This document shows, piece by piece, positions 6,001 through 43,306 of a stretch of 64,000 bases of DNA; the stretch's first letter is position 1; each line of letters begins with the position of its first letter. Position numbers and translations under genes: made by a program. The notes under the pieces are model-generated. The model saw only the letters and a list, made by a program, of their open reading frames with translations, had not been told where the DNA came from and ran no database searches. The stretch covers positions 2,339,001 through 2,403,000 of the forward strand of contig NZ_CP085876.1 in NCBI RefSeq assembly GCF_013284245.2, in the 5' to 3' direction. Source of the DNA: Brevibacillus sp. DP1.3A. GTDB taxonomy: Bacteria; Bacillota; Bacilli; Brevibacillales; Brevibacillaceae.

Positions 6001-9000
6001 AGTGACGGCAATGCAGCTACGCAAAACGTGCAGAAGCTCGACATTGATTTGTGTGATGAGCAAGGCAAGGTTTGCGTAAGCATGAAGGGATTCACAACGA
6101 GGGTGCTCGAAGGTGAAAAAGCTGCCGGATTTGCAAAAAGTAAAGGTACAGGGGAATCAAGCAAAATCACTAGTACGTTGATGCTACAGCCTGCTTGGAT
6201 CGAACAAGCCATTCCTAAAGAAGCCAAAGCTCCTGAATATGAACAGCATGTGGTGATGCTCTGTGAACCAGGGCAGATTTCTTGGGATAGCATTTCATCT
6301 CAGATAAATGATGCGAGATTCCTTGTATTGCAATCCGATCAGCAAGGAATAGCGGAACGATTCCAAGCGTATGCTGTTCAGGTTTTCGAAGAAATAAAAG
6401 CTCTTCTTCAAGCAAAACCAAAGGGGAAGGTACTGATTCAGATCGTTGTTCCTCTCCGATCGGAACAACGACTGTTTGCTGGTATAGCTGGTCTGTTGAA
6501 AACTGCACAGATCGAAAACCCGAAAGTAGTCGGACAGTTGATCGAAATCGATTCAACAGAAGATTCAGCGGGATTGGCGGAAAAGCTGAAAGCAAACAGC
6601 CTTTGCCCTACAGACTGCCAGATTCGCTATCAGTTCGGGAAAAGGTACATGGCGGGATGGAGTGAAGTGGCAGCTCCACAGGATGAAGTAAGTAAACCGT
6701 GGAAAGACAACGGGATTTATTTGATCACGGGTGGAGCAGGTGGCTTGGGACTTATTTTTGCCGAAGAAATGGCAGCGAGAGCTCATGGCATCACCTTGAT
6801 TTTGACGGGACGTACTATGCTGACTGAGGAGAAGCAAGCAAAGCTTCGTAAGCTTGCGGATAAAGGGGCAAGAATCGAATATCGCCAAGTGGATGTCACG
6901 CAGAAACAGGCCGTAGAGGATTTGATCCAAAGCATTCAAGCAGAGTTTGGCGATCTTCACGGGATCATTCACGGGGCGGGCGTGACTCGCGACAACTTTA
7001 TCCTGAAGAAAACCAAAGAAGAAGTACAAGCAGTTCTCGCGCCAAAGGTTGCGGGACTCATTCATTTAGACGAAGCGACTAAGGGACTGAATCTGGATTT
7101 CTTTGTGCTCTTTTCTTCAGCGGCTGGAAGCTTGGGCAATATGGGCCAAGCAGATTATGCAACGGCCAACGCCTTTATGGATACCTACTCCGCTTACCGC
7201 AACGAACAGATCGCGCTAGGCGAACGGCAGGGGCAGACTATCTCCATCAATTGGCCTCTGTGGAAAGAGGGCGGAATGCAGGTAGACGAAGAGACAGAAA
7301 AGAGATTGTGGGACGACCTCGGCATGGTTGCTATGCAGACGGCTTCGGGTATCAACTGCTTGTATCGGGGGTTAGCTTCGGGACAAGATCAGTTGATGGT
7401 CATGGAAGGCGATCTTGTACGAATGAAGCAAAGGCTGATGGGGGGCTCTGTGACCTCATTGACGCAAAGCGAGGTTCAAGCGTCTTTGCTGAAAATGGTC
7501 GCTGATTTGCTCAAGGTTGATAGAGAGGATATTGAAATCCACGCTGAGCTCCATGAGTACGGCTTTGACCAGATTAAGCTGACCGAATTTACAAACAAGC
7601 TGAATCAAGCCTATGAGCTTGATCTTACTCCAACTGTATGGGTAGAGTACCCGACGCTTTTTGCTGTCTCGCAATACTTGGTAGATGCATACCAGAATCG
7701 GTTCATACAACAGTTCCAACCAGCAGAGAGCGCAAGTACCCCTGCAAAAACGGAGAAAGAACAGCCTGTTTCCGTTGGGCAACAAGATGTGCTTCGGGCA
7801 AAAGTAAGGGAGTATCTGAAAAAGGAAATTTCTGCTGTTATCAAGCTCCCAGCTTATAAAATCGATGAGGATGCTCCTCTAGAGAAATACGGGATCGACT
7901 CAGTCATGGCGATGCAATTGACCAATCAATTGGAAAAAGCATTCGGTTCGTTGTCAAAAACGTTGCTCTATGAATACCAAAACATAGAGGATTTGACAGG
8001 CTATCTTTTGACACATCATGGAGACAAAATCATCGAAATCATAGGGGCTGGGAAAACCGTAGAGACAAGTACAGTAGAGAATGTTGCTCATGTACTGCCT
8101 ACTGCTGACTCCATAACAGAGCATCGCCGTCGCTTCTCACGGGGTGTTACCCATAAGCAGGAAAATAAACAAACAAAATCTGACCTAGACATTGCGATAA
8201 TCGGTATTTCTGGTCGCTATCCGCAGGCTTCCAATATACAAGAGTTCTGGAACAATTTGCGGGACGGCAAGGATTGCATTACAGAGATTCCGCAAGGGCG
8301 CTGGGATCACAGCTTGTATTTTGACGAGGATAAGAACAGACAAGGAAAAGCATACAGCAAATGGGGCGGATTCATAGACGGTGTCGATCAATTTGATCCG
8401 CTGTTTTTCCATATTTCTCCACGAGAAGCAGAAATGATGGACCCTCAGGAGCGCCTTTTCCTGGAAACCGTGTGGAATCTGCTCGAGGACACAGGACACA
8501 CGCGAGAGGTGTTACAACGTCAATATGATAATAGAGTGGGCGTCTATGTAGGGGCGATGTATCAGCCGTATCACGCATTTGATACGGATATGGATAAGGG
8601 TTCTATCATTTCCCTCTCTTCCTACCATTCGATTGCCAACCGAGTCTCTTACTTCTTTAATCTACAAGGTCCAAGCATGGCGATTGATACAGCGTGTTCT
8701 TCATCTGCTATTGCCATTTATCATGCCTGCGAAAGCTTGATGAAGGGAGAAAGCTCGCTTGCTATCGCTGGTGGCGTGAATGTTTCGATTCATCCTAAGA
8801 AATACCTAGGCTTAAGTAAGGCCCAAATGATTGGAAGCCACGTAGACAGTAGAAGTTTTGGAGATGGAGACGGATATTTACCAGCAGAAGGCGTAGGCGC
8901 TGTACTATTGAAGCCTTTAGCAAAAGCGATGGAGGATGGGGATTCCATCTTAGCCGTTATTAAATCAGCCGCGACCAATCATGGCGGACGTACCAATGGA

Positions 9001-19500: not shown

Positions 19501-22500
19501 GAGCTGCTGCGGATTTAGCAGTGGGAGCGTTGGAAGACGAGCAATACGCGATAGAGCTTAAAAATGTAGGTTGGGCGCAACCGATTGTAGTGGAAGACAA
19601 GCCTGTTCAAGTCCACATTGGCATTTATCCTGAGGATAACGGGGAGCTTCACTATGAAATATACAGCGAACCGCAAGCAGAACAGGCTGAAGCGGTGATA
19701 CACAGTCAAGGAAATGTGGTGTTAACAGCGATCACTGCTGCACCCACGCATAATCTCGATGCGATCAAAGCCCACTGCAGCTATCGCACGCTTCATGCAA
19801 GTCAGTGCTATGAAGCTTTTCAAACAATGGGACTTGTCTATGGTCCGGCCCATCAAGGAATTGAGCAAGTGTACGTGGGAGTGGGACAAGTATTGGCCAA
19901 ATTAGCCATGCCTTCCAAGGTTGCCGAGACGCAAGGAGAATTCGTCTTGCATCCGAGCATGCTAGATTCGGCCTTACAATCTTCTATCGGATTACTGCTT
20001 AGCGCAGGCGATACAGCGATTCTGAAGCCAATCCTGCCTTTTGCACTGGAGAAGCTGAGCATTTTTAGCCAGACTTCTTCCCAGATGTGGGTATGGATTC
20101 GACAGGCTGACGGCAATAGGATGGGAGACAAGGTACAGAAAGTAGATATTGATTTGTGTGACGGCCAAGGAACGGTTTGCGTGCGTATGCAGGGCTTCTC
20201 CGCACGAGTGCTGGAAGGCGAAGTAGAGACGCTGGATTCCAAAGGGAAACTGGGAACACTGCTGGTTCATCCTGAGTGGAAGGAACAAGCGGTTGTGAGC
20301 AACGCCGAAACCCCTGACTATACACAGCGAGTCGTGATGATGATTGAACCGGATCGCGTTTCTTGGAACAATCTCCAAACCTATTTGAATGGAGTCCATT
20401 GCATTCCTTTGCAATCCGCACAAGAAGGCATTTCCGAGCGTTTCATTGATTATACGACGCAGGTATTTGAGGAAATTCAAGAGATTTTCAAGCAAAAAGT
20501 ACGCGGCAAGGCATTGGTTCAGATTGTCGTTCCCATGCGAGCTGAACAGCCGTTTTTCACCGCATTCTCTGGATTGCTGAAAACGGCGAAATTGGAGAAT
20601 CCCAACCTAATTGGACAGGTAATAGAGGTAGAAGCGAGCAACGACGAATTCGAGATTGCTGAAAAAATAAATGAGAATGTCCGCTGCCCATTGGATGTTC
20701 AGATTCGATATCAATCTGGAAAGAGATATGTAGCTGAGTGGGTAGAACTGGATACTCCACAAGAAGCGAGCATTCCGTGGAAAGACGGTGGGGTTTATCT
20801 CATCACTGGCGGGGCAGGCGGATTGGGTTATATTTTTGCCAACGAAATTGTACAAAAGGTTCAACATGCGAACTTGATTCTGACAGGACGTTCCCCATTA
20901 GATGAAGAGAAGCAAGGAAAACTCCGGGAATGGAAAGAATCGGGAGCAAGAGTTGAATACCGTCTAGTTGATGTGACGCAGAAACAGGAAATGGCAGATT
21001 TGATTCGCACGATTCAACAGGACTATGGACGTCTTCATGGCATTATTCATAGTGCTGGCGTGCTTCGTGACAGCTATATCCTCAAGAAAAACAGGGAAGA
21101 AGTCCAAACAGTTCAGGGTCCGAAGGTTACGGGCCTTATCAATCTGGATGAAGCCAGTAAAGATGTAGAACTGGATTTCCTGGTACTGTTTTCTTCGGTG
21201 GCAGGCAGCTTGGGAAATATCGGACAAGCTGACTATGCTTGCGCCAACGCCTTTATGGACAGATTCGCCCACTATCGCAATGGATTGGTTGCATTAAAGC
21301 AGCGACACGGACAGACATTGTCCATGAATTGGCCGTTGTGGGAAGAGGGCGGAATGCAGGCTGATGCAGAGGCTGGTGACATGTTGAAGCATAGCATGGG
21401 TGTAGTCGCTATGCAGACTTCGACGGGGATTGCAGCTATGTACCAAGGCTTAGCCTCCGGAAAAGCTCAGGTCATGGTGATGGAAGGTGATCTGGCTAAG
21501 CTCAAGCAAACACTGTTTTTGCAAACGCCAGTCAACAGTTTTCAATCGAAACATTCGGTAACGGTGGATGCCAGCAGTCTGTTGCAAAAAGTGGAACTGG
21601 CCTTGATGCAAACCGTGTCGGAGCTGCTTCAGGTTCCTACCACAGATATTGATGTCAAAGTGGAGCTGTCTGAACTCGGATTCAATCAGGTTCTCCTGAC
21701 TGAATTCACCAACAAGCTTAGTCAGCAATATCAAATTGGACTGATTCCGACTGTATTCGTGGAGTGTCCGACGCTTCAGCAGCTTGCGTCCTATTTACTT
21801 GAAGAATTTGAAGACATGCTGGTCAAACAGATGCAGCCAGTGGCATCAATCACACCAATCAGAGTAGAGCAAAATGAAAAACAAGCGACCACATATGTGG
21901 AACAAAATGTCCTCCAGGAAAAAGCGACTCATTTTGTGAAAAAGGAATTTGCCGAGGTACTGCAACTGCCCGTAAATCGAATCGAAGAAGATGCTTCGAT
22001 GGAGACATACGGAATTGATTCGATTCTATCCATGAAATTAACCAACCAATTAGAGAAAAGCTTTGGCTCACTACCGAAAACGTTATTTTTTGAGTATCAA
22101 ACGATTCAAGAATTGATTGGATATTTCTTGGACTCCTATCGAGACAAATTCATTGAAATCTTGGGTCTGAAGGAACCACAGCGGCAGGAAACAGTTGTTA
22201 TCGAAGAAACAGCATCCGTGACAAAAGAAGAAAATACGTCGAAAAGGCAAATGAACAGCCATCACGGAAGAAGTCGCAAAGGCTCGCGGTTCGTTTCGAC
22301 ACAAAAGGAAACCCAACCAGCCAAAGGAGCTTTGGATGTTGCGATCATTGGGGTTTCTGGACGTTATCCGAAAGCACGGAATACGCAAGAGTTCTGGAAC
22401 AATCTGCGCGATGGCAAGGATTGCATAACGGAGATCCCCAAAGAGCGCTGGAACCACAGTCTGTATTTTGATGAGGATAAGAACAAACGGGGGAAAACCT

Positions 22501-25500
22501 ACAGCAAATGGGGCGGATTCATAGACGGTGTAGATCAATTCGATCCGCTGTTCTTCAACATCTCGCCTCTGGAAGCAGAAATCATGGACCCGCAGGAACG
22601 TTTATTCCTGGAGTGTGTGTATGAAACTTTAGAGGATGCAGGCTATACCCGTGAATCTCTCGGATCGTCCCAAGGCTTCGGACTTGGCGGTAATGTCGGT
22701 GTTTATGTGGGCATTATGTATGAAGAGTATCAACTGTATGGTGCACAAGAAACCATGATGGGCAGACCAATGGCCCTTGGCGGAAGCTTCTCATCTGTAG
22801 CGAACCGGGTTTCTTATTTCTTTGATTTCCATGGTCCTAGCGTAGCGGTTGACACCATGTGTTCCTCTTCTCTAACCGGCATCCATTTTGCCTGCCAAAG
22901 CTTGCAGCGCGGTGAATGCGAGGTTGCGATTGCAGGGGGTGTCAATGTGTCCATTCACCCGAATAAATATTTGATGCTTGGACAGGGAAAATTTGCTTCC
23001 AGCAAGGGACGATGCGAAAGCTTTGGGCTTGGCGGTGACGGCTATGTGCCTGGAGAGGGTGTCGGAGCGGTACTGCTTAAACCTCTGGCGAAAGCAATCG
23101 CCGATGGAGATCAAATTTACGGTGTGATTAAAGGAAGCGCCATTAACCATGGTGGCAAAACAAATGGCTATACCGTTCCTAACCCGAATGCACAAGCGAG
23201 CGTAATTGGCCGTGCCTTGAAGGAGGCAGGAATTGATCCACGGACGATTAGTTATTTGGAAGCTCACGGTACAGGTACTTCTTTAGGAGATCCCATAGAG
23301 ATCGCAGGTTTGACAAAAGCCTTCCAAGCGTACACAACAGACAAGCAGTTCTGCTCAATCGGATCAGCGAAGTCCAATATCGGGCATTGTGAGAGTGCAG
23401 CGGGAATTGCCGGGATAACGAAAATCCTGTTACAGCTCAAACATGGACAACTAGCACCATCCTTGCATGCGGAGGTGCTAAACCCGAATATTGATTTCAG
23501 CACGACTCCGTTTGTCGTACAGCAAGAGCTGGCGGAGTGGAGACGTCCTGTCATTGACGGTCAGGAAATTCCAAGACGCTCCGGTGTGAGCAGCTTTGGT
23601 GCGGGTGGCTCGAATGCTCATATCGTTTTGGAAGAGTACATTCCAGACGATGAGAAACGTCCAGCTATCCAAGTAAGTCACACGAATCCAGCGATCATTC
23701 TCCTGTCAGCGAAGAATGAAAGCCAGCTCCACGAACAGGCACAGCGTTTGTTAGCTGCGATCAAGGATCAGTCCATTTCTGACATGGACTTAGCAGCTAT
23801 TGCTTACACGCTTCAAATTGGGCGAGAAGCCATGGAAGAGCGCCTGGCTGTGATGGCCAGTTCCATTCAAGAGCTTCAGGAAAAGCTGATGCAATTTGTA
23901 GAGGGACAGGAAGGCGTCACAGACGTATTCCGAGGACTGGTGAAAGGCAATAAAAAGACGATCACCGTATTTGAAGCGGATGAAGATTTGAAACAGGCAA
24001 TCGATGCTTGGATGAGCAAAAGAAAATACGCCAAGCTGCTTGATCTGTGGGTAAGTGGAGGCGTGGTTGATTGGCAAAAGCTTTACGGTGAGAAGAAGCC
24101 TCGTCGCATTAGCTTGCCGACGTATCCGTTTGCAAGGGAACGTTATTGGATTCCTCAGATGGAGACACAATCTGCGAGAGAAGTTGCAGCTGCATCAGAA
24201 GGGACGCTCTTCCTACACCCATTGCTCCAGAAAAACACGTCTGAATTGTTGGAACAGCGGTATAGTTCCACCTTCCGTGGACAGGAGTTTTTCTTGGCAG
24301 ATCATGTTGTTAATGGACAGCAGCTCTTACCGGGGGTTGCCTATCTCGAAATGGCACGTGAGGCAATCGATCAGTCAGCAGGAGCCTTGAAAGCGGAACA
24401 GAATGGCATGACGCTCAAAAATATTGTGTGGGCCAAGCCAATTGCTGTCGATGATCAGCCTGTCGATGTTCACATTGGTCTGCAGCTGGAAGACAGTGGA
24501 GAGATTGGCTATCGAATTTACAGTCAGCATACCGGAAATGCAGCAGAAGAGAACGTGCACAGTCAGGGAAGTGCCGTATTCCATACGGTTGCGGATACGC
24601 CAACCCTTGATCTCGCTATGTTACAAGCCGCGTGTAGCCATAGTATCTTGAGTGGCAGCCAATGCTATGACAGTTATAAAGCAATGGGAATCCATTATGG
24701 TCCAGCGCTGCAAGGAATTGAGCTAGTGCATAAGGGCACGGAGCAGGTGTTGGCAAAGCTGTCCTTACCTTCTGCTGTTTTGGGGACAGAAGAGCAGTTT
24801 GTACTGCATCCAAGTATGATGGATTCTGCTTTGCAGGCGGCGATTGGTTTATTTATGGGGGCAGATGACAGGAGTCTCGCCGACCATCTTGATTCGCTCA
24901 AGCCAATCTTGCCGTTTGCCCTAGATGAGCTGGAAATCTTCAGTCCATGCACGCCGCAAATGTGGGCGTATATTCGCTACAGTGATGGCAGCAACGCTTC
25001 TGATCATGTGCAGAAGCTGGATATTGACTTATGTGACGAGCAAGGAAATGTTTGCATCAGAATGAAACGATTTTCGTCTCGTAAGCTGGATGGCAAAGGG
25101 GAAGGCTTCGAAGCTACAAGGGCACAAGAGATGCTGATGGTTCATCCTTGCTGGCAGGAACAAGTAGGTGCTCAGAAAACGGAGCCTCCTACCTATGCAC
25201 AGCATATCGTGATGATTGCCGAAGGTTTTGAATCGTCGCTTGCAAGTCTATCAGCACAGATGAATGAAGTGCACTTGATTCCTTTACAATCCCAACAGGA
25301 TGGTATTGCGGACAGGTTCGAGGCCTATGCTTCCCAAGTATTTTTGGAAATCCAAAGCATCTTTCAACAAAAGATACTTGGCAAGGTGTTATTGCAGGTC
25401 GTTGTTCCCGACAAAGCGGAGCATTCGTACGTAAGCGGACTTTCTGGCTTGCTGAAAACAGCTCAGCAGGAGAATCCAAATGTAATCGGCCAATTCATTG

Positions 25501-31955: not shown

Positions 31956-31960
31956 AAGTG
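31946..31960 (+). promoter_or_regulatory. RBS deciding the GTG start of C
   Basis: GGAGGG at 31946-31951 lies six bases before a GTG at 31958, which begins two bases after the stop of B. The TTG at 31928 would give a longer frame, but it overlaps B and lacks this spacing. Confidence 0.7.
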
Positions 31961-34900
31961 CATGATCAGTTTCTCATAACGATCAACCATCCAATCCTCA
32001 AAAATCATAAAGCGCACGGTCAGGAACTGTTGCCCGGATTAGCCCATATTGATCTGTTGTATCAAATGTTTCGCGAAAATGGTCATGATTACAGCGAGCT
32101 TGAGCTGCGTAATCTAACGATCTATCATCCGATCATGGTGGGACAAGACTATGATGTCATGCTGAGCATTCAGTGCACGCAAGGCAAAGCAGGACAGTGG
32201 CAGATTCGGATGGAGGGTCAGACACAGCGCAACGGCATTTTAGACTCGGAGAAAAAGCTGTATGTCACTGCTGAAATGCATCATAGTGCCGCTATGCAGT
32301 TCGATGAAACGCTGGATCTTCTCATGATAGAGCAAGCGGCAAACAAAAAGGTCAATCTGCATGATGTGTATGAACAATGCCGCCGCCAGGAATTGGTGCA
32401 TACAGGTTTTATGAAGGCAGAAGGAACGATTTACGAAACAGATTCAGCGGCGGTAATCGATATTTCACTCGGTAAACATGCCCTTCCCAGTGCGGAAGGG
32501 TTCATGTTTCACCCGACATTGATCGATGGGTCCGCGATCGGCTCGATGGTAATGTTCACCTCGGTAGTCCAAGAAGAACAGCGGCTATTTTTACCGCTTT
32601 TTTATGAATCTTTTCGGGCCTCCGCTCTTTTACAGCAACATTGCTTTGCCAGAGTACAAACGTCATCTATCCAGCGAAAAAATGAACTGATGTATATGAC
32701 GATGGAGTTCTTTGATAGATCAGGTAGAAAAATAGCACATTTGCAAAATTTTGCGGGCAAGCTAGTTCGTGATCCTGGTCTGATCAATCCCAATAAAAAA
32801 GAAGTACCTCAGCTTCGAGAGGAGATTCAACCATCGAAGCAAACAGTATCTCTGTCGAAAGGATCTGTTCATGAGGCGAATGAATCGCAATCTGCCCTCG
32901 TGAGTAAAGCACAAACTTTTTTACAACAACTGCTGGCAGATCGATTACAAGTTCCAGCCGCATTGATTGATACGCAGATTGGTTACTATGAAATGGGGCT
33001 GAATTCACCGGGCTTATTGGAAGTGGTGAAGGCTGTCGAAGCGAAAGTAGGAACACCGCTGTCTCCTACTTTATTGTTTGAGTATACGAATATCGCTGAG
33101 TTGGCCGCCTATCTTGCCGAGAATCATGCTTCCGTATTCAGCGGGCTTGATTTGATGAAACAGGAAGGTAAACAAGAGTTGCCGCAACCTGCCAGGGTCG
33201 TAGATTCATCAGCAATCTCTGAGAGTCATGCAGCGAATGCCAATGAAGAAATTGCGATCATCGGGATGGCAGGGCGTTATCCAGAGGCCAGAAATCTCCA
33301 AGAATTCTGGATGAATTTAAAAGAGGGCAAAGACTGCATCAAAGAAGTCCCGAAATCTCGCTGGGATTGGCAGCAGTTTGGGGAACTCAAATCCCCTTCA
33401 GGAAAGCAGATGTCCAAATGGGGAGGGTTTATTGAAGACCCTGATTGCTTTGATTCTCCCTTTTTCCGAATATCGCCGCGGGAAGCAGAAACGATGGACC
33501 CCCAAGAGCGTTTGTTTTTGGAAACATGCTGGGAAGCGATGGAAGATGCGGGTTATACGCCGAAGACGATTGTTCCGGCTCGGGGGAGCAGTAACAGACG
33601 GCAGGTTGGTGTCTTTGTTGGCGTGATGCACAAGGATTATGCCCTCATCGGAGCAGAAGCGATGTCTCGGGGAGAAATGTTCCCGTTATCCTTGAACTAT
33701 GCACCGATTGCCAATCGCGTTTCTTATTTCTGCAATTTTCATGGTCCAAGCATGGCGATTGACACCGTATGCTCATCCTCTCTGACGGCTGTTCATTTGG
33801 CGCTGGAGAGCATCAAGCGAGGAGAATGTGAGGTAGCATTGGCGGGTGGCGTCAATTTATCCTTACATCCTGGCAAATATTTGTCATATGGCATGATGGA
33901 TATGCACGCTAGTGATGGCTATTGTCATACCTTTGGTAAGGATGGCGACGGGTATGTTTCTGGCGAAGGCGTCGGTACCGTCGTGTTAAAGCCATTGCGC
34001 AAAGCGATTGAGGATGGAGATCATATTTATGCCGTGGTAAAAGGAAGCAGTGTGAACCACGTCGGATCGGTGAGCGGGCCTTCCGTACCAAGCCCTGTTG
34101 CTCAAGCTGAGGTGATTACAGCATGCCTAGAAAAGAGCGGTGTGGACGCGAGAACGATTCGTTATGTAGAAGCACACGGGACCGGGACTTCTTTAGGCGA
34201 TCCGATTGAAATTCAAGGATTGGTGAAAGCGTTTCGTCGATTTACAGAGGATCAGCAGTTTTGTTCCATTGGCTCGGTGAAATCAAATATCGGGCATGCA
34301 GAATCTGCCGCGGGTATCAGCGGTCTGCAAAAAGCTGTTCTTCAGCTCCACCATAAAACGCTCGTTGCTTCCTTACATGCCAAGGAAGTGAATCCGTTTA
34401 TTGATTTTGCGCAATCTCCTTTTTATGTACAGCAACGGACAGAAGAATGGAAAACGGTGAGCATGGAAAACGGTCAAGAAGTCACCGTTCCGAGACGAGC
34501 GGGGGTAAGTTCGTTTGGAGCTTCGGGGTCCAATGCCCATGTTATTTTGGAAGAATACACCCCAGCCGAAACAAAGCCGAAAGCGCAAGCAATTGGCCAT
34601 AAAAATCACCCAGTGATAATTCCGCTATCTGCCAAGAATAAGGAAAGATTGCAAGCCTATGCGCAAAAAGTAGCGGAGTTTCTAAAAGGGGCATCATCTG
34701 ACAATCAGCTTCAAGAAATGCTGGAGAAGAAGCTACGCAAGATTTTATCCAGTATTATTCATGTGGGAGAGAACAGCATTGAGATCGAACAAGAGTGGCA
34801 TGAATACGGAGTAGACCTCGTTCAAATCACACAGTTAAAGCAAAAACTGCAAGAGGAGCTGCATATTCAGCTAGATATCAAGGAGTTCGATCAAAGCAGC

Positions 34901-37900
34901 TCTATTGCTTCCGTCATCGCTTCTCTCATGGATAACCATCGAGAGGATATTGAGGGAGAAGTTCAGTCTTTTGCTGATTTAGAAACGCAACTCGATCTGG
35001 AAAATGTGGCGTATACCTTGCAAGTTGGACGAGAAGGGATGAAAGAACGAGTAGCCTTTGTCGTCAAGGATATACCTGAGCTGATGGGAAAATTGGAAGC
35101 TTATTCGAAAGGCGAGAATACGATCGATACTTGTTGGGAAGGGAGCTCGAAGCCTAACAACGATTCATTCGGATTATTAAGCGATAACCACGACTCTCAA
35201 CAGCTTATCCAAAGCTGGGTTGCAGAAGGCAGCATCAGAAAAATAGCTGAATTATGGGTGACAGGCTATGAAATGGATTGGGAACAGCTTTATCTGAATA
35301 ACAAACCTAGACGTGTTCCTTTGCCCACATACCCATTTGCGAAGAATCGTTATTGGATTCCGGAAAGCAAAAGTAAATCTGTAAGCGGCAAGACAGCAGC
35401 GCCATTCACATTCACGAGTGAAGCTGCGATTCATCCACTGTTGCAAAGGAATACTTCTGATTTTTCTGAACAGAGGTTTAGTTCCACCTTTACAGGTCAG
35501 GAGTTTTTCCTAACGGACCATGTCGTGAAGAAGCAGAGAATCTTGCCGGGAGTTGCCTATCTGGAAATGGCGAGAGCAGCAGCAGAGCAAGCAACGGCTG
35601 CCTTGACAGAAGAACCAGCCCAGATTCAACTCAAAAACGTGGTTTGGACACGGCCAATTGTCGTGGGGGACCAGCCTGCACAGATACATATCGGTCTTGT
35701 TCCCGAAGAGAATGGTGAGATTACTTTTGAAATCTATAGCGAGTTGGAGGCTATGGATACAGAACCCGTCTTACACAGTCAGGGCAGCGTCATGCTTCAT
35801 TCTGTTGCTGAGAAACATGCCTTGAATCTGCCATCCTTACAAGCGGAGTGCGGTCACCGTGAGTTTTCATCTGAACAATGCTACAGCATTTTTCATTCAA
35901 TAGGAATGGATTATGGGTCGGCACATCAAGGAATTGACTCGTTGTATGTAGGGGAGGGCAAAGTATTAGCCAAGCTGTCCTTGCCAGCCTCCATCTCCGA
36001 AATGGAGAATCCTTTTGTACTGCATCCAAGCCTAATGGATTCTGCCTTGCAGGCATCTATCGGGCTCATGATGGTTGCGGAGGATACCCCATCAGCGGAT
36101 GGCCATTCGAATCGCAAGCCCTCCTTGCCTTTTGCCATGGAGGAGATCGACATTTACGACAAGTGCACGTCCTCGATGTGGGCGTATGTTCGCTACAGTG
36201 CCAACAGCAGCGCAGATGACAAGGTGCAGAAGCTGGATATTGATTTATGCGATGACCAAGGAACTGTTTGTGTACGAATAAAGGGATATTCCATGCGAGT
36301 GCTCGAGGATGGGAAGCAGGCAAACCATGTTTCTTCGAGCCTAGCTTCTTCCGTAATCTCACTGGAGCCTCCTGTGGGGAATCTCATGCTGTCCGCTGTG
36401 TGGGATGTGACTCCAGTTGAGAAAGGACAGCTTTTCCCTACTGCTGATGAGCAGGTAGTCATTGTGGGGGGAAATGAAGAGAATGCACGCTCCATTCAAC
36501 AATACTTTCCTCGAGCAAAAGTGTCGTCCATTCAGGCTGAGAATACGATTGAGGAAATCGTACACCGACTGGAAGAGCTTGGTTCCATTGATCATCTGGT
36601 GTGGATCGCTCCTTTTGATGCGATAGATTCCTTGGCGGATCATCGATTAATCGCGGGGCAGGATCAGGGAGTGATTCTATGCTTCCGAACGATTAAAGCC
36701 TTGCTTTGCTTGGGATACGGAAGTAAGGAGTTGGGGTGGAGCGTCATCACGGTTCAATCCCAGCCCATTTGCCATACAGATGTTGTGAATCCTTGCCACG
36801 CCAGTATTCATGGATTAATTGGTTCGATGGCAAAGGAATATCCAAACTGGAAGATTCGACTTATGGATGTAGAGGCCGAATCTGAATGGCCATTAGATGA
36901 TATGGTGAGACTGCCAAGAGATCGTCAGGGGCGTCCGTGGGTTTATCGTCAGGGTGAATGGTATCGCCAGCAGTTGCTTACCGTCGATCATCCCCCGATC
37001 GATCATACACGTATGAAGCAGGGTGGCATTTATTTGGTGATTGGCGGTGCTGGTGGCATCGGTGAAGCATGGACCGAATATATGATTCGTACCTATCAAG
37101 CCCAGATCATATGGATTGGTCGTCGTCAAAAAAATGAAGAGATTCAAGCGAAGATGGATAGGCTTGCCACTTTTGGACCAGCACCAGCCTATATAGCAGC
37201 GGATGCAACGCAGCAGAATGCTTTGCAAGAAGCTTATGAACAGATAAAGCAAACGTATACACGGATTGACGGAGTTGTTCATTCTGCCATGGTCCTGGTT
37301 GAGGAAAGCTTGGAAAACATGCAAGAGGAAGGTTTCCGAGCAGTGCTTTCGTCTAAGGTTGACGTGAGTGTGAACATCGCTTTGGTGTTTGAGAAGGAGC
37401 CTTTGGATTTCGTATTATTCTTCTCTTCGCTCATGGCAGTTACAAAAGCTCCGAAGCAAAGCAACTACGCGGCTGGATGTACCTTTAAGGATGCCTATGC
37501 TCATCAATTGACCCAAGCATGGCCATGTGCGGTGAAACTGATCAATTGGGGCTATTGGAGCAGTGGGCAAGTGGAAGAGTCTCATCAAGAGATGGTAGAG
37601 ACCTATCGTCGTTTAGAGCAAATCGGCATTGGTCTTATTCAGCCTCCAGAAGCCATGCAAGCCATAGAGACACTTCTCGCAGGAGCTATGGATCAAGTTG
37701 CTTTAATGAAGACCACGAAGCCTATTGTCATTGAAGGGATGAAGGTAGAGGAATGGGTGGGTGTTCACTCTGCACTTTATCCATCCATGCTACAGCTGTC
37801 TGCCCATGAAAATGAAGGGCTTGCTGATGTTGTGGCTGCCTTTATCAAGGAGAGATTGAAGCAGGATCCATCAGCGCGAATGCGGATTCTCGAACTCGGG

Positions 37901-40900
37901 TCAGGTACAGAATCTACCAGTTCCTTGATTTCACAAAAATTACATGCCTATCAATCTTTTATGAGCTTCCAAGTTATTGATCCAGAAGCGGCATTAAGTG
38001 AACAAGGAATGAATGCTAGTGAATACGACCTGATTATCACAGCTGATAAACTGCACACAGCTCAACAAATTCGCCAAACCATGCGTAACTGCAAGAATCT
38101 CTTAAAAAGGAATGGTCTGCTTCTAGTAAAAGAGATGACCGATCAAAACGTACCTAAAGACCTCGCAGAAGGTCTTTCACTACCTCTGGAAGCTTGGCAG
38201 AAAGTATTGAGAGATGAGGGCTACCGAGTTGTCTCCTATCCACAGTTGATGATTGCTGAAAGTGACGGCGTGGTCCGCAAGTCCAAACAACAGCAGAAAT
38301 CAATGGGGACCTCAGCTTCCACTCTACCCATTTCTTCACATGCAGACAGAGGAACGAGCACAGAGGAAATGCTTCGGGAGAAAAGCATCGCCTATTTCAA
38401 ACAATTGGTCGGAGAAACACTGAAAATTCCATTTGACCAGATCGACTCTTCTGCCGCTCTGGAGGAGTATGGCATTGATTCGATTATGATTGTGCAGATG
38501 ACGAATGTCTTACGGAAAAAATTGCATCAGATCAGCACGACCCTCTTTTTTGAATATCAAACGATTGATGCGCTGGTCGAGCATTTCATGACAACACAAA
38601 CGGATGAATTGCTTGCATTAGTCGGAATAGATGACCAGCGGCCTGTTCAAAAGCAAATAACCAACGCAGCAGCTTCTGCAAAGCCAACCAGAGAGCAAGC
38701 TGGCTCGACATTTCGAAAGGCAAAGTCTCGCCGTTTCCTGCAAGTTCTTGATACAAAATCGGAAAAACCAACAGCGCCGTCCAGACAGGATGTGGCGATC
38801 ATTGGTCTTTCAGGTCGTTATCCGCAAGCGGAGGATGTCTGGGAGTTTTGGACTCGCCTGAAAGAAGGGAAGAATTGCATCACGGAAGTACCGGAGGATC
38901 GTTGGAATTGGCAAGAATTTTTCAGCGAAGAAAAAGGAAAAAGAGGATACATGTACACCAAATGGGGCGGTTTCATCGAAGATATTGATAAATTCGACCC
39001 GCTATTTTTCCAAATTTCGCCTAACGAAGCAGAGCAGATGGACCCTCAGGAGCGCTTATTTTTACAAACGGCATACGCCAGTTTAGAAGATGCGGGCTAC
39101 ACACCTGCCACATTAGGAGAAAGTAGAAAAATTGGTGTGTTTGTTGGTGTCATGAATGGAAATTACCCAGCAGGAACGAGCTACTGGTCGATTGCGAATC
39201 GACTTACCTACTTGTTCAATTTCCAAGGACCGAGTCTAGCAGTGGATACGGCGTGCTCCTCTTCTTTGACGGCGATCCATTTAGCCTTGGAAAGCCTGTA
39301 CAGCGGTACAAGTGAATGTGCCATCGCTGGCGGTGTCAATTTAATTGTCGATCCGTTTCACTATATTCGACTGTCTGGAGCGACTATGCTATCTGCTGGT
39401 GACAGCTGCAAGTCGTTTGGCGACCAAGCGGACGGCTTTGTAGATGGAGAAGGTGTGGGAGCTATCGTATTGAAGCCTCTGCAAAAGGCGATTGCCGACG
39501 GAGACCACATATACGGCGTGATCAAGGGAAGCATGCTCAATTCAGGGGGCAAAACAAATGGATATACGGTTCCAAACCCCATCGCGCAGTCGCAGGTAAT
39601 CCACGAGGCATTGCAGCGAGCAGGAGTGGATGCTCGTGCCGTCAGCTATATCGAAGCGCACGGTACAGGTACCGCTTTGGGCGATCCAATCGAGATTGCG
39701 GGACTGACTCGCGCATTCGGACAATACACGAAAGACAAGCAATTTTGCTCGATCGGCTCGGCCAAGTCGAACATTGGACATACGGAGAGCGCGGCAGGAA
39801 TTGCAGGCTTGACTAAAATATTGCTTCAGATGAAGTATGGTCAAATCGCACCATCTCTGCACGCTGAGGTCATGAATCCAAACATTGATTTCAGCGATAC
39901 ACCATTTGCAGTTCAGCAAAAGCTGGCTGAGTGGAAACGACCAACCATCGAAATCAACGGAGTAACCAAGGAGTATCCGAGAATCGCCGGGCTATCATCT
40001 TTCGGGGCAGGAGGAGCTAATGTCCATATCGTCATCGAAGAGTATCCCGAAAAAGATAGACAGCCTCAGAGTAGCATCCAGCCACAGCAACCAAAAATGA
40101 TCGTGCTCTCCGCGAAGAACGAAGAGAGACTGTTCGTTCAAGTGAATCAATTATTGAAGGTGATCAAAGAAGAATCATTCACCGATGCCCATTTGGCTGA
40201 TATCGCTTTTACGCTTCAAGTAGGGCGGGAATCGCTGGAAGAACGCTTGGCTGTTATCGTCAGATCAGTTGATGAGCTGGAGGAAAAACTAACGCATTTT
40301 GCAGAAGGCGCAGAGTACATTGCCGAGCTGTATCGTGGGCGAGTGAAACGCAACCATGACACGGTAGCTCTTTTTGCTGATGAAGATATGAAGCAAACAG
40401 TGGAGACATGGATTGCCAAGGGGAAATACGCAAAACTGATGAACCTTTGGGTCAAGGGCGTCTCTCTTGACTGGAATAAACTATATAGCGAAGATAAGCC
40501 GCGCCGCGTCAGTTTGCCTACCTATCCTTTTGCTAGAGAGCGTTACTGGATAAACGTTCAAAAGCCAATAGCAACAGGTATGCCCGAAGCATTTTCGGCT
40601 AGCGGGGATATCCTCCATCCATTGCTTCATAAAAACACTTCTGACCTCTATGAACTGAGATACAGTTCCAGTTTTACAGGGCAGGAGCCGTTCTTGGCAG
40701 ATCATCTTGGAAACGGGCAATGCCTCTTTCCACTCACTGCTTATCTGGAAATGGCACGGGCGGCAGTGAAACAGGCAGCAGGAGATAGAGCGGGGACTTT
40801 ATCTGGAATCCGAATGACTCAGGTTGCTACAGAAGAGCCGCTATTGGTGGGCGATGATTTGGTTCAGGTACATCTGGGGATCTATCCAGAGGATACTGGA

Positions 40901-43306
40901 GAGCTTGCTTATGAAATCTACAGCGAATCGAAAGAAGATGATACCAAGTCTGTGGTACATAGCCAAGGTATGGTCGAATTTACTTCGCTCGTTGAAGCAC
41001 CAACTTTGAATCTAACTGCCTTGCAAGCCGAGAGCAGCGAGATGCTTACTGCCCGACAATGCTACGAGCAGTTAAAAGAACGTGGAATGGCTGATCAACC
41101 GAATTTGCAAGGGATTGACCACGTATACAGGACACGAGGACAAGTACTGGTAAAACTCTCCTTGCCCTCAATTGTGACGGAGACAGCAGGACAATTCGTT
41201 CTTCATCCTAGCCTGCTAGAGTCCCTGTTGCAGTCATCTCGTCATCTCATCACGGAGGTTACATCATCTGACAGTATCAGCTCCATCCAATCAGATGGTA
41301 CTTTTACCCTTGAAGAGCTGGAGATCTTCGAGAATCATCCTGTTTTGATGTTTGCTCTCATTCGATTCAGTGATGATGTCCAAGCGGAGAATGAGACTGC
41401 GACAATAGACATTGATTTATGCGATGAGGCAGGCAGAATAGGCGTGAGGATGAGAGGCCTATCAATTGGGAGCGAAAAACGGGTTGCGACGTTGAGAGAG
41501 ACTCAGGAAACAGTGACTTCCGCTCCACCGCTGATGGGAACCACGATGCTCACTCCAGTATGGAACGCCGTGTCTGTCGAAAAAGGGGAAGTCATTCCAG
41601 CAACAAGTGATCAAGTAGTCATCGTTTGCGCCGAAGAAAAGGACGGAAGTCTCCTACAACGTCATTACCCTCAAGCTACTGTTTTACCGCTTCAGTCAGA
41701 TGACTCTATTGAGGTTATCTCAAATAAGCTGGAAGAGCAGGGGGTAATCGATCATATCATGTGGGTTGCTCCTGATAGCTCTGTGGAATCCGTAAAAGAG
41801 GAGTCCTTGATGAACGATCAGGAGCGGGGCGTTATTCAAGTTTTCCGCTTGATCAAGGCTTTGCTTGCGTTGGGGTATCAGACGAGAGACTTGGGCTGGA
41901 CGATCATTACTGTTCAGGCGCTGGCTATCTACAAAAAAGATACGGTTCATCCAACGCATGCCAGCATCCACGGGTTGATCGGATCGATGGCGAAGGAATA
42001 TCCGAACTGGAAGGTAAGACTCGTCGATTTGGGAGCGCATACCGATTGGCCGCTACGTGATATTTTTGCTTTACCCGCCGATGCTCATGGAAACGCTTGG
42101 GCATATCGTGGACACGCGTGGTATCGCCAGCAGCTGATGCCTGTGCAGAGTCCTTTCATCAGTCAAACCGTCTACAGACAGCATGGAGTCTATGTTGTAA
42201 TTGGAGGCGCGGGCGGTATTGGACAAGCGTGGAGCGAATACATGATCCGCACCTATCAAGCACAGATCATTTGGATCGGTCGTCGCAAGAAAGATGAGTC
42301 GATTCAGAACAAAATAAATCAACTTGCTGCCCTAGGACCCGCACCGCTCTACATCGATGCCGATGCTACGGATCGCGAGTCGCTGCAATCTGCTTACGAA
42401 GAGATCAAGAAGCAATATGCCAAAATTAACGGGGTAATTCATTCCGCTATTGTTCTCCTTGATAGAAGTCTGGCGAATATGGACGAGACAACCTTCCGCG
42501 CTGGACTGGTACCAAAAGTAGAGGTAAGCGTGCGGATGAGCCAAGTATTTGGCGAGGAGCCGTTGGATTTCGTCCTATTTTTCTCCTCGATTAACTCGTT
42601 TACGAAATCGCCAGGACAAAGCAATTATGCTTCAGGCTGCGCCTTCAAAGATGCTTTCGCCCATCAGCTTGCCGAGGAATGGACGTGTGCGGTGAAAGTA
42701 ATGAACTGGGGATACTGGGGCAGTGTTGGAATCGTTGCGTCCAAGGGCTATATGGAACGCATGGAACAAATCGGCATTGGCTCGATTGAACCTTCAGAAG
42801 GGATGGAGGCATTGGAAGCCTTGTTATCTGGTCCGATGAATCAAGTGGCGCTGATGAAAACGACCAAGCCACTCGATATGGAGGGAATCAATACAAGCGA
42901 ATCTGTTGCAGTCGTTTCAAACAAAATTTCCTCCAGCATGGCAAGCATTAAAAACAAGTTAAAAGTAAAAGAGATGCCGAGAGCAGCCTATTTTGCATCA
43001 GAAATGGATACGGACAGGCACAGCTTGTTTGATGACGTACAAGCAACGATCATTCAACTCGCCTCTCTAATCCTGAAGGTAGAGAGCGAAGAAATAGATT
43101 CGGATATTGAACTGAAGGAGTACGGATTCGATCCAGTCAAGCTCACCGAGTTTTCTACCAAAATCAATCAGAAGTACAAGCTTGAACTGACACCAGCTGT
43201 GATGATGGACTATCCAACGCTTAAGCACATCACTGAATTTCTAGTCAATACCACCCTGAAATCTCAATCGGAAAGAGAACAGGACAAACCGGTTCTATAC
43301 GTGTAA
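31958..43306 (+). CDS. Megasynthase C: trans-AT PKS, DH-ACP plus two KS-DH-KR modules
   Basis: 3782 residues from the GTG at 31958. It opens with a DH (about 5-300; His17 in HKAHGQELLP; Asp190, but DGSAIG instead of DxxxQ) and an ACP (Ser350 in GLNSP), completing the bimodule begun in B. KS1 (431-868, Cys605) follows; its linker carries an inserted ACP-like domain (about 912-1000, GVDLV with Leu954 in place of Ser). Then DH (1159-1450; His1188 but HVVKKQRILP, Lys1192 for the usual Gly; Asp1361), KR (GGAGGIG 1696, Tyr1837), a shortened degenerate methyltransferase (about 1928-2108) and ACP (Ser2175). KS2 (from 2278, Cys2433) is very close to KS1 of A in its MNGNYP and YWSIANRL region. Its DH (2887-3170) has His2916, but Glu3088 replaces the catalytic Asp and the YGPAHQG motif is DQPNLQG, so it is probably dead. 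KR (GGAGGIG 3416, Tyr3557) and an ACP0 (GFDPV, Pro3726) end the protein. The methyltransferase and ACP of this last module are at the start of D. Confidence 0.94.
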   Translation: MHDQFLITINHPILKNHKAHGQELLPGLAHIDLLYQMFRENGHDYSELELRNLTIYHPIMVGQDYDVMLSIQCTQGKAGQWQIRMEGQTQRNGILDSEKKLYVTAEMHHSAAMQFDETLDLLMIEQAANKKVNLHDVYEQCRRQELVHTGFMKAEGTIYETDSAAVIDISLGKHALPSAEGFMFHPTLIDGSAIGSMVMFTSVVQEEQRLFLPLFYESFRASALLQQHCFARVQTSSIQRKNELMYMTMEFFDRSGRKIAHLQNFAGKLVRDPGLINPNKKEVPQLREEIQPSKQTVSLSKGSVHEANESQSALVSKAQTFLQQLLADRLQVPAALIDTQIGYYEMGLNSPGLLEVVKAVEAKVGTPLSPTLLFEYTNIAELAAYLAENHASVFSGLDLMKQEGKQELPQPARVVDSSAISESHAANANEEIAIIGMAGRYPEARNLQEFWMNLKEGKDCIKEVPKSRWDWQQFGELKSPSGKQMSKWGGFIEDPDCFDSPFFRISPREAETMDPQERLFLETCWEAMEDAGYTPKTIVPARGSSNRRQVGVFVGVMHKDYALIGAEAMSRGEMFPLSLNYAPIANRVSYFCNFHGPSMAIDTVCSSSLTAVHLALESIKRGECEVALAGGVNLSLHPGKYLSYGMMDMHASDGYCHTFGKDGDGYVSGEGVGTVVLKPLRKAIEDGDHIYAVVKGSSVNHVGSVSGPSVPSPVAQAEVITACLEKSGVDARTIRYVEAHGTGTSLGDPIEIQGLVKAFRRFTEDQQFCSIGSVKSNIGHAESAAGISGLQKAVLQLHHKTLVASLHAKEVNPFIDFAQSPFYVQQRTEEWKTVSMENGQEVTVPRRAGVSSFGASGSNAHVILEEYTPAETKPKAQAIGHKNHPVIIPLSAKNKERLQAYAQKVAEFLKGASSDNQLQEMLEKKLRKILSSIIHVGENSIEIEQEWHEYGVDLVQITQLKQKLQEELHIQLDIKEFDQSSSIASVIASLMDNHREDIEGEVQSFADLETQLDLENVAYTLQVGREGMKERVAFVVKDIPELMGKLEAYSKGENTIDTCWEGSSKPNNDSFGLLSDNHDSQQLIQSWVAEGSIRKIAELWVTGYEMDWEQLYLNNKPRRVPLPTYPFAKNRYWIPESKSKSVSGKTAAPFTFTSEAAIHPLLQRNTSDFSEQRFSSTFTGQEFFLTDHVVKKQRILPGVAYLEMARAAAEQATAALTEEPAQIQLKNVVWTRPIVVGDQPAQIHIGLVPEENGEITFEIYSELEAMDTEPVLHSQGSVMLHSVAEKHALNLPSLQAECGHREFSSEQCYSIFHSIGMDYGSAHQGIDSLYVGEGKVLAKLSLPASISEMENPFVLHPSLMDSALQASIGLMMVAEDTPSADGHSNRKPSLPFAMEEIDIYDKCTSSMWAYVRYSANSSADDKVQKLDIDLCDDQGTVCVRIKGYSMRVLEDGKQANHVSSSLASSVISLEPPVGNLMLSAVWDVTPVEKGQLFPTADEQVVIVGGNEENARSIQQYFPRAKVSSIQAENTIEEIVHRLEELGSIDHLVWIAPFDAIDSLADHRLIAGQDQGVILCFRTIKALLCLGYGSKELGWSVITVQSQPICHTDVVNPCHASIHGLIGSMAKEYPNWKIRLMDVEAESEWPLDDMVRLPRDRQGRPWVYRQGEWYRQQLLTVDHPPIDHTRMKQGGIYLVIGGAGGIGEAWTEYMIRTYQAQIIWIGRRQKNEEIQAKMDRLATFGPAPAYIAADATQQNALQEAYEQIKQTYTRIDGVVHSAMVLVEESLENMQEEGFRAVLSSKVDVSVNIALVFEKEPLDFVLFFSSLMAVTKAPKQSNYAAGCTFKDAYAHQLTQAWPCAVKLINWGYWSSGQVEESHQEMVETYRRLEQIGIGLIQPPEAMQAIETLLAGAMDQVALMKTTKPIVIEGMKVEEWVGVHSALYPSMLQLSAHENEGLADVVAAFIKERLKQDPSARMRILELGSGTESTSSLISQKLHAYQSFMSFQVIDPEAALSEQGMNASEYDLIITADKLHTAQQIRQTMRNCKNLLKRNGLLLVKEMTDQNVPKDLAEGLSLPLEAWQKVLRDEGYRVVSYPQLMIAESDGVVRKSKQQQKSMGTSASTLPISSHADRGTSTEEMLREKSIAYFKQLVGETLKIPFDQIDSSAALEEYGIDSIMIVQMTNVLRKKLHQISTTLFFEYQTIDALVEHFMTTQTDELLALVGIDDQRPVQKQITNAAASAKPTREQAGSTFRKAKSRRFLQVLDTKSEKPTAPSRQDVAIIGLSGRYPQAEDVWEFWTRLKEGKNCITEVPEDRWNWQEFFSEEKGKRGYMYTKWGGFIEDIDKFDPLFFQISPNEAEQMDPQERLFLQTAYASLEDAGYTPATLGESRKIGVFVGVMNGNYPAGTSYWSIANRLTYLFNFQGPSLAVDTACSSSLTAIHLALESLYSGTSECAIAGGVNLIVDPFHYIRLSGATMLSAGDSCKSFGDQADGFVDGEGVGAIVLKPLQKAIADGDHIYGVIKGSMLNSGGKTNGYTVPNPIAQSQVIHEALQRAGVDARAVSYIEAHGTGTALGDPIEIAGLTRAFGQYTKDKQFCSIGSAKSNIGHTESAAGIAGLTKILLQMKYGQIAPSLHAEVMNPNIDFSDTPFAVQQKLAEWKRPTIEINGVTKEYPRIAGLSSFGAGGANVHIVIEEYPEKDRQPQSSIQPQQPKMIVLSAKNEERLFVQVNQLLKVIKEESFTDAHLADIAFTLQVGRESLEERLAVIVRSVDELEEKLTHFAEGAEYIAELYRGRVKRNHDTVALFADEDMKQTVETWIAKGKYAKLMNLWVKGVSLDWNKLYSEDKPRRVSLPTYPFARERYWINVQKPIATGMPEAFSASGDILHPLLHKNTSDLYELRYSSSFTGQEPFLADHLGNGQCLFPLTAYLEMARAAVKQAAGDRAGTLSGIRMTQVATEEPLLVGDDLVQVHLGIYPEDTGELAYEIYSESKEDDTKSVVHSQGMVEFTSLVEAPTLNLTALQAESSEMLTARQCYEQLKERGMADQPNLQGIDHVYRTRGQVLVKLSLPSIVTETAGQFVLHPSLLESLLQSSRHLITEVTSSDSISSIQSDGTFTLEELEIFENHPVLMFALIRFSDDVQAENETATIDIDLCDEAGRIGVRMRGLSIGSEKRVATLRETQETVTSAPPLMGTTMLTPVWNAVSVEKGEVIPATSDQVVIVCAEEKDGSLLQRHYPQATVLPLQSDDSIEVISNKLEEQGVIDHIMWVAPDSSVESVKEESLMNDQERGVIQVFRLIKALLALGYQTRDLGWTIITVQALAIYKKDTVHPTHASIHGLIGSMAKEYPNWKVRLVDLGAHTDWPLRDIFALPADAHGNAWAYRGHAWYRQQLMPVQSPFISQTVYRQHGVYVVIGGAGGIGQAWSEYMIRTYQAQIIWIGRRKKDESIQNKINQLAALGPAPLYIDADATDRESLQSAYEEIKKQYAKINGVIHSAIVLLDRSLANMDETTFRAGLVPKVEVSVRMSQVFGEEPLDFVLFFSSINSFTKSPGQSNYASGCAFKDAFAHQLAEEWTCAVKVMNWGYWGSVGIVASKGYMERMEQIGIGSIEPSEGMEALEALLSGPMNQVALMKTTKPLDMEGINTSESVAVVSNKISSSMASIKNKLKVKEMPRAAYFASEMDTDRHSLFDDVQATIIQLASLILKVESEEIDSDIELKEYGFDPVKLTEFSTKINQKYKLELTPAVMMDYPTLKHITEFLVNTTLKSQSEREQDKPVLYV
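34693..34950 (+). other. Carrier-like domain inserted in the KS-DH linker of C
   Basis: The post-KS linker normally runs from a helix like RLxAYAQKVAEFLK directly into VAYTLQVGREGMKER. Here about 100 residues intervene. They contain an ACP-like helical segment with EYGVDLVQITQLKQKL, where Leu (codon 34817) replaces the phosphopantetheine Ser. The insertion looks like a relative of the other ACP0 domains placed inside a structural linker. Confidence 0.75.
35432..36310 (+). other. DH of module C1 with a variant active-site motif
   Basis: The motif reads HVVKKQRILP, so Lys (codon 35531) replaces the conserved Gly of HxxxGxxxxP; the YGPAHQG region reads YGSAHQG. The catalytic His (codon 35519) and Asp (codon 36038, DSALQ) remain. 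Activity may be kept; altered specificity or reduced rate is possible. Confidence 0.75.
37740..38290 (+). other. Degenerate C-methyltransferase remnant in C
   Basis: Between the KR and ACP of module C1 lies a segment that aligns with both ends of the intact methyltransferase of D. Its SAM motif is LELGSGTES where D has LEIGAGTGG. The middle of the Rossmann fold is shortened and a block corresponding to LEGWWLYEDPELRLSG in D is absent. The C-terminal ESDGVVRK matches ESDGVIRQ in D. It is probably inactive. Confidence 0.8.
40616..41475 (+). other. DH0 domain in C: catalytic Asp replaced by Glu
   Basis: HPSLLDAALQ of the other DH domains is HPSLLESLLQ here (Glu codon 41219), and the YGPAHQG motif is lost. 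His in HLGNGQCLFP is kept (codon 40703). Loss of two of the three conserved features suggests no dehydration in this module, which would leave a beta-hydroxyl. Confidence 0.75.
43027..43260 (+). other. ACP0 domain at the C-terminus of C
   Basis: The last domain of C reads EYGFDPVKLTEFSTKI, with Pro (codon 43133) instead of the phosphopantetheine Ser. It is otherwise close to the ACP0 domains of A and B. It sits at a module split, after the KR and just before D, which begins with the methyltransferase and a functional ACP. A role in joining C to D is possible. Confidence 0.82.

Follow-up and report, generated by a model that had tools for sequence, protein, structure and literature searches.

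Three domains with the carrier (ACP) fold in the trans-AT PKS/NRPS cluster of Brevibacillus sp. DP1.3A lack the phosphopantetheine Ser, lie behind a KR, and are nearest to the ACP type of DH-KR modules that are served in trans by an enoylreductase (ER). We give about an even chance to the reading that these KR-side domains are switched-off carriers of that trans-ER type, left at the place where an ACP-KS or methyltransferase-ACP-KS unit was swapped in and kept as folded spacers. A preliminary description of this DNA had treated them, together with a fourth Ser-less domain, as one family of a single type. The three do share one nearest Ser-bearing ACP type, but the fourth, at 34.7 kb, is an insertion in a KS linker and belongs to a separate positional class, so that a family of four was rejected. 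Both the trans-ER-type kinship of the three and the distinct nature of the fourth had been overlooked.

The window, i.e., the whole stretch of 64,000 nucleotides analyzed here (G000:C1:2339001-2403000), covers most of the cluster; a PPTase, an AT-AT-ER protein, and the first PKS proteins of the same cluster lie upstream of it. A NusG-like ORF on the minus strand (G000:C1:2322597-2323193, locus L006) adjoins the PPTase at the cluster start and is a candidate for a LoaP-type antiterminator. The cluster is carried by 7 of the 26 same-genus genomes searched (its own included), in which the orthologs of the first Ser-less domain are 82-100% identical; the species names on the cluster orthologs are Brevibacillus formosus, B. 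porteri, and B. fortis. Our comparison set consists of 18 PKS regions from 13 genomes, in which local profiles delimited 217 KSs and 298 ACPs, 27 of the latter Ser-less. Since the regions were picked by strong matches to a model built on Ser-less ACPs, 27/298 is no frequency. That model finds a match in at least 41 of 398 Bacilli genomes among the matches listed. At least one Ser-less ACP occurs in 11 of the 18 regions and none in the other 7; in other phyla, the Janthinobacterium region has 0 of 17 and the Dictyobacter region 3 of 21.

The bounds of the domains were set with a local ACP profile for which 14 ACPs of the window served as seeds, the four Ser-less ones among them, and all four also match PF00550 with 39.9-54.0 bits (gathering score 20.8). 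Domains A (7441..7662, plus strand; EYGFDQIKLTEFTN) and B (21552..21782, plus strand; ELGFNQVLLTEFTN) both lie between a KR and a working ACP and carry Gln at the Ser site, encoded by CAG at 7570-7572 and 21687-21689, respectively. Leu (CTC, 34817-34819) takes this place in the ACP-like insertion in the KS linker (34685..34909, plus strand; EYGVDLVQITQLKQ), and Pro (CCA, 43133-43135) in the domain at the C-terminus of ORF C (42998..43228, plus strand; EYGFDPVKLTEFST). None of the four thus has the Ser of a functional carrier, and for each of them the replacement codon is identical in 7/7 species. The preliminary description was therefore right about four carrier-fold domains without the phosphopantetheine Ser and about the residues Gln, Gln, Leu, and Pro in its stead. 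It also had their places, with two starts (34693 and 43027) that are out of frame; the intact helices that it ascribed to them are borne out by the profile matches only. AlphaFold monomer predictions, made from an alignment of 4 closely related rows, gave mean pLDDT values of 30.7 and 39.0.

Across the 18 regions, the Ser-less domains are found at a few recurrent positions: of the 27, 12 immediately precede a working ACP, 6 precede a methyltransferase (in a split arrangement five times, in cis once), and 9 come right behind a KS. Among the 42 tandem ACP pairs, the 30 Ser/Ser pairs have a median identity of 71% (range 41-100), against 15-34% in the 12 Ser-less/Ser pairs, where the Ser-less member comes first in 12/12. 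Domains A and B are each 27% identical to the working ACP beside them, which is not the close kinship of tandem duplicates. Randomly decaying duplicated ACPs were rejected on these pair identities, and the earlier argument against random decay is well supported for tandem copies, as the Ser-less domain is always the first of an unrelated pair. Gln occupies the Ser site in 7/12 tandem cases and in 0/15 others; a change from Ser to Gln takes two base changes and hence fits common ancestry or selection better than a large number of independent fresh losses. A Ser-less domain before a methyltransferase-ACP in cis is seen in one Brevibacillus region (G000b) and in Dictyobacter (G401), and the split form five times in Brevibacillus, the window included. 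The Dictyobacter region (L183-L186) also holds a beta-branching-type doublet (DMGMDA/DMGMDS) with the Ser-less member first, a same-type exception to the pattern. A second trans-AT cluster of the DP1.3A genome (G000:C1:800001-880000; L040-L043) has five Ser-less ACPs, each before a methyltransferase, and its trans-ER carries the usual His.

The domain at 34685-34909 follows the KS at 33248..34558 (plus strand) and is inserted in the order KS-[ACP-like]-linker, between the NAHVILEE (34532) and LPTYPF (35321) motifs. All nine ACP-like domains that lie at most 110 aa behind a KS in the 18 regions are Ser-less, and the remainder of the linker was detected behind five of them. By its position, we regard the insertion as a separate Ser-less ACP-like class with its own relatives, not to be pooled with the other three; it is located in a stretch where trans-AT PKSs are thought to recombine.

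Domains A and B both belong to modules of the order KS-DH-KR-[Ser-less]-ACP. In module A, the catalytic region of the KR (6709..7278) precedes the Ser-less domain, and the working ACP (7777..7989; KYGIDSVMAMQLTN) is followed by a KS (8188..9483), all on the plus strand. This KS has AANGS in place of HGTGT, as in the non-elongating type; it probably does not elongate, and the C-A module (NRPS) of ORF B comes directly after it. Module B has its KR region at 20790..21356, its working ACP at 21885..22112 (TYGIDSILSMKLTN), and the next KS at 22335..23639, likewise on the plus strand. In a tree of 74 KSs, the one behind B (KS8 of the window) and its successor KS9 are sisters within the olefin clade, which also takes in a KS of a bacillaene polyene module. 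The KS behind A is also nearest to the olefin type but long-branched (0.84 vs 1.53), which makes its assignment weak. The reduced-substrate clade that would be expected next to a clade-h ACP, with bacillaene KS2 in it, contains none of the 14 KSs of the cluster; behind B there is an olefin-type KS instead.

We then compared ACP and KS types, with a reference of 52 DH-KR modules whose classes were set by ACP motif and with related clusters left out when nearest neighbors were sought. In this reference, the type of the ACP agrees with the nearest type of the downstream KS in 51/52 modules, and leave-group-out assignment of the ACP type succeeded in 52/52, the classes being motif-defined. The nine testable modules are the DH-KR cases among the 12 tandem cases, A and B included. 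Left out were 5 of the 31 modules of the other type (‘MQL’), whose ACPs are of the split-dehydratase type; 7 DH-KR modules with an ACP of neither class, some of which carry GFDS motifs close to the trans-ER type; 3 of the 12 tandem cases, which lack a cis DH-KR pair; and 2 cases in G123c, where the domain stands behind a KS. In 9/9 testable modules the first, Ser-less ACP is nearest to the trans-ER (T-E-F) type, while both the second ACP (9/9) and the downstream KS (9/9) are nearest to the other, olefin type. In the three excluded tandem cases, the downstream KS is nearest to the olefin type twice and to the beta-hydroxy type once; that G002b, a tandem module lacking a DH, hands over to a beta-hydroxy-type KS counts against the switched-off-carrier reading.

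The distances of the Ser-less ACPs are 0.99-2.81 to the T-E-F type and 2.80-4.23 to the other type, but their branches are long, and in all nine cases one and the same short-branched Ser-bearing ACP (of G123a) is the closest, so that the placement by some 75 residues could be partly long-branch attraction. The T-E-F reference type takes in the tandem-ACP module of bacillaene, which is described as served by a trans-ER and as having an ACP clade of its own, clade h, with conserved T66, N70, and N73 (PMC8549798). The corresponding residues (T+4, N+8, and N+11) are complete in 22/26 T-E-F ACPs, in 0/31 of the other type, and in 1/9 Ser-less ACPs, namely domain A of the window. Domain B lacks N+11, the C-terminal domain N+8, and the KS-linker insertion both Asn residues. 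By ACP trees, a check that the preliminary description had proposed, the three KR-side domains come out nearest to the trans-ER ACP type; the fourth is a different insertion by its position. The trees of KRs (33/52) and DHs (24/52) do not resolve the module type. The KRs of A and B are nearest to an olefin-type KR of their own cluster, which counts against a swap, and those before Ser-less ACPs in G274 (2) and G123a (2) are nearest to trans-ER-type KRs.

dN/dS was estimated according to Nei-Gojobori with a codon bootstrap over 21 non-independent pairs. Pooled over the four Ser-less domains it is 0.312 (95% CI 0.230-0.382; single domains 0.27-0.33 with wide intervals), compared with 0.128 (0.108-0.149) for the 18 carrier domains with Ser in these proteins (NRPS ones included) and 0.521 (0.443-0.609) for 14 ACP-KS linkers. 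The Ser-less domains of this main set are thus less constrained than working carriers, by a factor of about 2.4. A value of 0.31 means that they do not decay freely; it lies well away from the dN/dS near 1 that the preliminary description had named as speaking against a selected role, and it is lower than expected for a pure relic, which counts against the switched-off-relic reading. Helix II, the partner-binding helix of an ACP, is relaxed in the Ser-less domains (0.381, 0.184-0.727, vs 0.086, 0.052-0.131, in Ser-bearing ones), and the stretch before the Ser site is tight (0.048). KR-epitope positions, taken from PksJ ACP4 (PMC8549798), are invariant at 17/20 Ser-less sites, compared with 19/32 sites elsewhere in helix II (Fisher p = 0.07), which hints weakly at a retained surface. 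Five Ser-less domains compared between G000b and G006 gave 0.313 (0.196-0.544), indistinct from the ACPs (0.212) and the linkers (0.411), with single values from 0.14 to 1.64 and two of the five above 1; one domain compared between G156 and G226 gave 0.092 (0-0.341).

From the positions, the nearest types, and the level of selection, we infer the following course for the KR-side domains. Each may descend from the ACP type of DH-KR modules served in trans by an ER, and would have been retained as a unit of another kind, ACP-KS or methyltransferase-ACP-KS, came to be joined downstream of it. With two unlike carriers in one module, the trans-AT would malonylate both, and the old carrier could offer its chain to an ER, giving a product that the new olefin-type KS would refuse. 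Loss of the Ser would close this side path and leave one working carrier. Under weakened purifying selection, the leftover fold could persist between KR and working ACP as a spacer or scaffold.

A rather unlikely alternative is docking, in which the Ser-less ACP would recruit a trans-ER, or the AT-AT-ER protein as a whole, to act on the chain of the next ACP. The ER of this protein (L006:7335-8564, i.e., G000:C1:2326335-2327564), upstream of the window, has SGGNTD in 7/7 orthologs, with Asn for the usual His of SGGHTD, which we take to be catalytic by analogy with the FabK/nitronate-monooxygenase family. The site could be read at 28 of the 30 loci fetched (two, and one further locus, gave no row), and the 21 other ERs have His (15), Pro (3), or Tyr (3). 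Of the solved structures, MlnA has Asn and DfnA His at this site; the ER of the difficidin cluster of B. velezensis is, by eye, near-identical to DfnA. Asn in all seven orthologs argues against ER docking, yet this point is weakened by G323 and G156, where a Tyr-type ER goes together with Ser-bearing trans-ER-type modules, so that Asn may not mean a dead ER either. On the side of docking, the type of ACP is reported to be a key factor in recruiting the trans-ER for gladiolin (PMC10921412), the epitope sites are mostly invariant, and the AT-AT-ER protein is strongly conserved (ER dN/dS 0.059; 380/410 sites invariant in 6 species), even though a search by motif found no Ser-bearing trans-ER-type ACP in the window's cluster. 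As a leading reading, however, it was rejected because the KS clades contradict it: the KS is olefin-type after B and in all nine testable modules, and the cluster's own KSs stay outside the bacillaene KS2 clade. In G274, moreover, two near-identical KSs (KS9 and KS7, 0.01 apart) follow modules with and without a Ser-less domain, helix II is relaxed overall, and two domain-bearing junctions of G000b have no DH, hence no enoyl substrate in that module.

Somewhat less probable still is a spacer or subunit-docking bead with no ER history, which would set the reach of the downstream ACP or join proteins C and D. The C-terminal domain closes ORF C after KS-DH-KR, and ORF D starts with the C-methyltransferase (43664..44386) and the working ACP (44477..44704; AYGMDSIFSVQLIN) that complete the split module. 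Its DH (40613..41464) has Asp replaced by Glu in the second catalytic motif (HPSLLES) and an unusually high dN/dS (0.40), and is probably inactive; its KR (42185..42718) is of the methyltransferase-module type (all four on the plus strand). On the tree of 298 ACPs, the neighbor of the C-terminal domain is a Ser-bearing member of the trans-ER type. A bead would fit the position before a methyltransferase-ACP protein, as a Ser-less domain occupies 5/7 Brevibacillus KR C-termini of this kind, and selection that, in the main set, exceeds that on linkers. Against it stands a paralogous KR|methyltransferase junction of this cluster, where the upstream protein leads into ORF A; it does without the domain although the two KRs are nearest neighbors, and subunit docking was rejected for the C-terminal domain on this ground. 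By eye, the start of ORF D shows no matching extra element relative to its ORF A counterpart, and KR C-termini outside Brevibacillus have the domain in 0/13 cases (two of which are frame breaks). A docking-domain review (PMC9113145) gives the four-helix-bundle and DHD types as the key classes in trans-AT systems. These are helical terminal segments of about 25 aa or, where a KS meets a DH, stretches of about 70 aa on the C-terminal side of the KS. The Ser-less domains look different: they are ACP-profile domains of about 75 aa, internal after a KR in A and B, and between KR and methyltransferase at the C-terminus. The specific docking job suggested in the preliminary description, be it for an AT, ER, hydrolase, KR, or subunits, thus finds no support, given the G274 KSs and the paralogous junctions, one with and one without the domain.

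Some further observations concern methyltransferases. The C-terminal tails (232 and 236 aa) of two other KR proteins were considered as hidden ACPs and dropped; they contain the start of a methyltransferase, hence a frame break. Apparent frame breaks split a methyltransferase over two ORFs in G123a (15188/21943) and in G274 (15503/27487). Within ORF C, at about 37805-38182, a degenerate C-methyltransferase remnant with a weak Methyltransf_23 match lies between a KR and an ACP.

The altered ER, which is as conserved as a KS, meets a cluster whose trans-ER-type ACPs, by motif, all lack the Ser, and for that reason one could also think of a docking pair: a silent ER would grip the dead carriers and hold the AT-AT protein on the assembly line, as a tether for extender loading. 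We hold this to be improbable. Plain neutral decay, with duplicated ACPs losing their function and the remainder free of selection, is the most improbable of all. In its favor are a dN/dS above that of working ACPs, the relaxed helix II, the variety of residues at the Ser site, and the two G000b/G006 domains, of five, whose single values lie above 1. Against it, the pairs are no duplicates, the loss hits the first member every time, the pooled dN/dS is well below 1 and below that of the linkers, and the replacement codons are fixed in all seven species.

If the KR-side domains are indeed silenced trans-ER-type carriers, Ser-less ACPs would be readable footprints of natural module rewiring in trans-AT PKSs, and nature would also join units between KR and ACP, given a silenced old carrier. 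The engineering rule would then be to kill the old carrier's Ser rather than to excise the domain. They would also make it easier to recognize, by sequence, the DH-KR modules that a trans-ER reduces, a problem that product prediction has yet to solve.

We found no paper on a recurrent, position-ruled Ser-less pattern or on its link to the trans-ER type in a search that covered little of the subscription literature; the one isolated natural precedent found is ACP9a in module 9 of the phthoxazolin A PKS (Streptomyces avermitilis), where likewise a first ACP without Ser stands beside an active second one (PMC5764310); the two are termed inactive-type and active-type. As described there, it is a single case, in a module of a dehydrating bimodule. 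KSs of trans-AT PKSs are reported to coevolve with the domains directly upstream, and engineered exchange of ACP-KS units is on record (PMC11260071, PMC7930024). The natural exchange units in these sources recombine past the KS, close to the NAHVILEE and LPTYPFx5W motifs or between them, whereas the join proposed here would lie between KR and ACP, with a dead ACP left behind. The difficidin PKS of B. velezensis (Bv_C12, ORF 27566) resembles the 34685-34909 insertion in having a Ser-less domain right after a KS that follows an EMGL-S-type ACP; it differs in its diverged sequence (EFGLDVMQLTQFSE) and in that the linker remainder was not detected behind it. The KR-side domains, finally, compare best with the clade-h ACPs of bacillaene (PksJ ACP3a/b; PMC8549798), the nearest Ser-bearing type in every testable tandem module, whose three diagnostic residues domain A retains. 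Unlike clade h, the Ser-less ACPs have no Ser, keep all three residues in only one of nine cases, and are followed by an ACP and a KS of another type.
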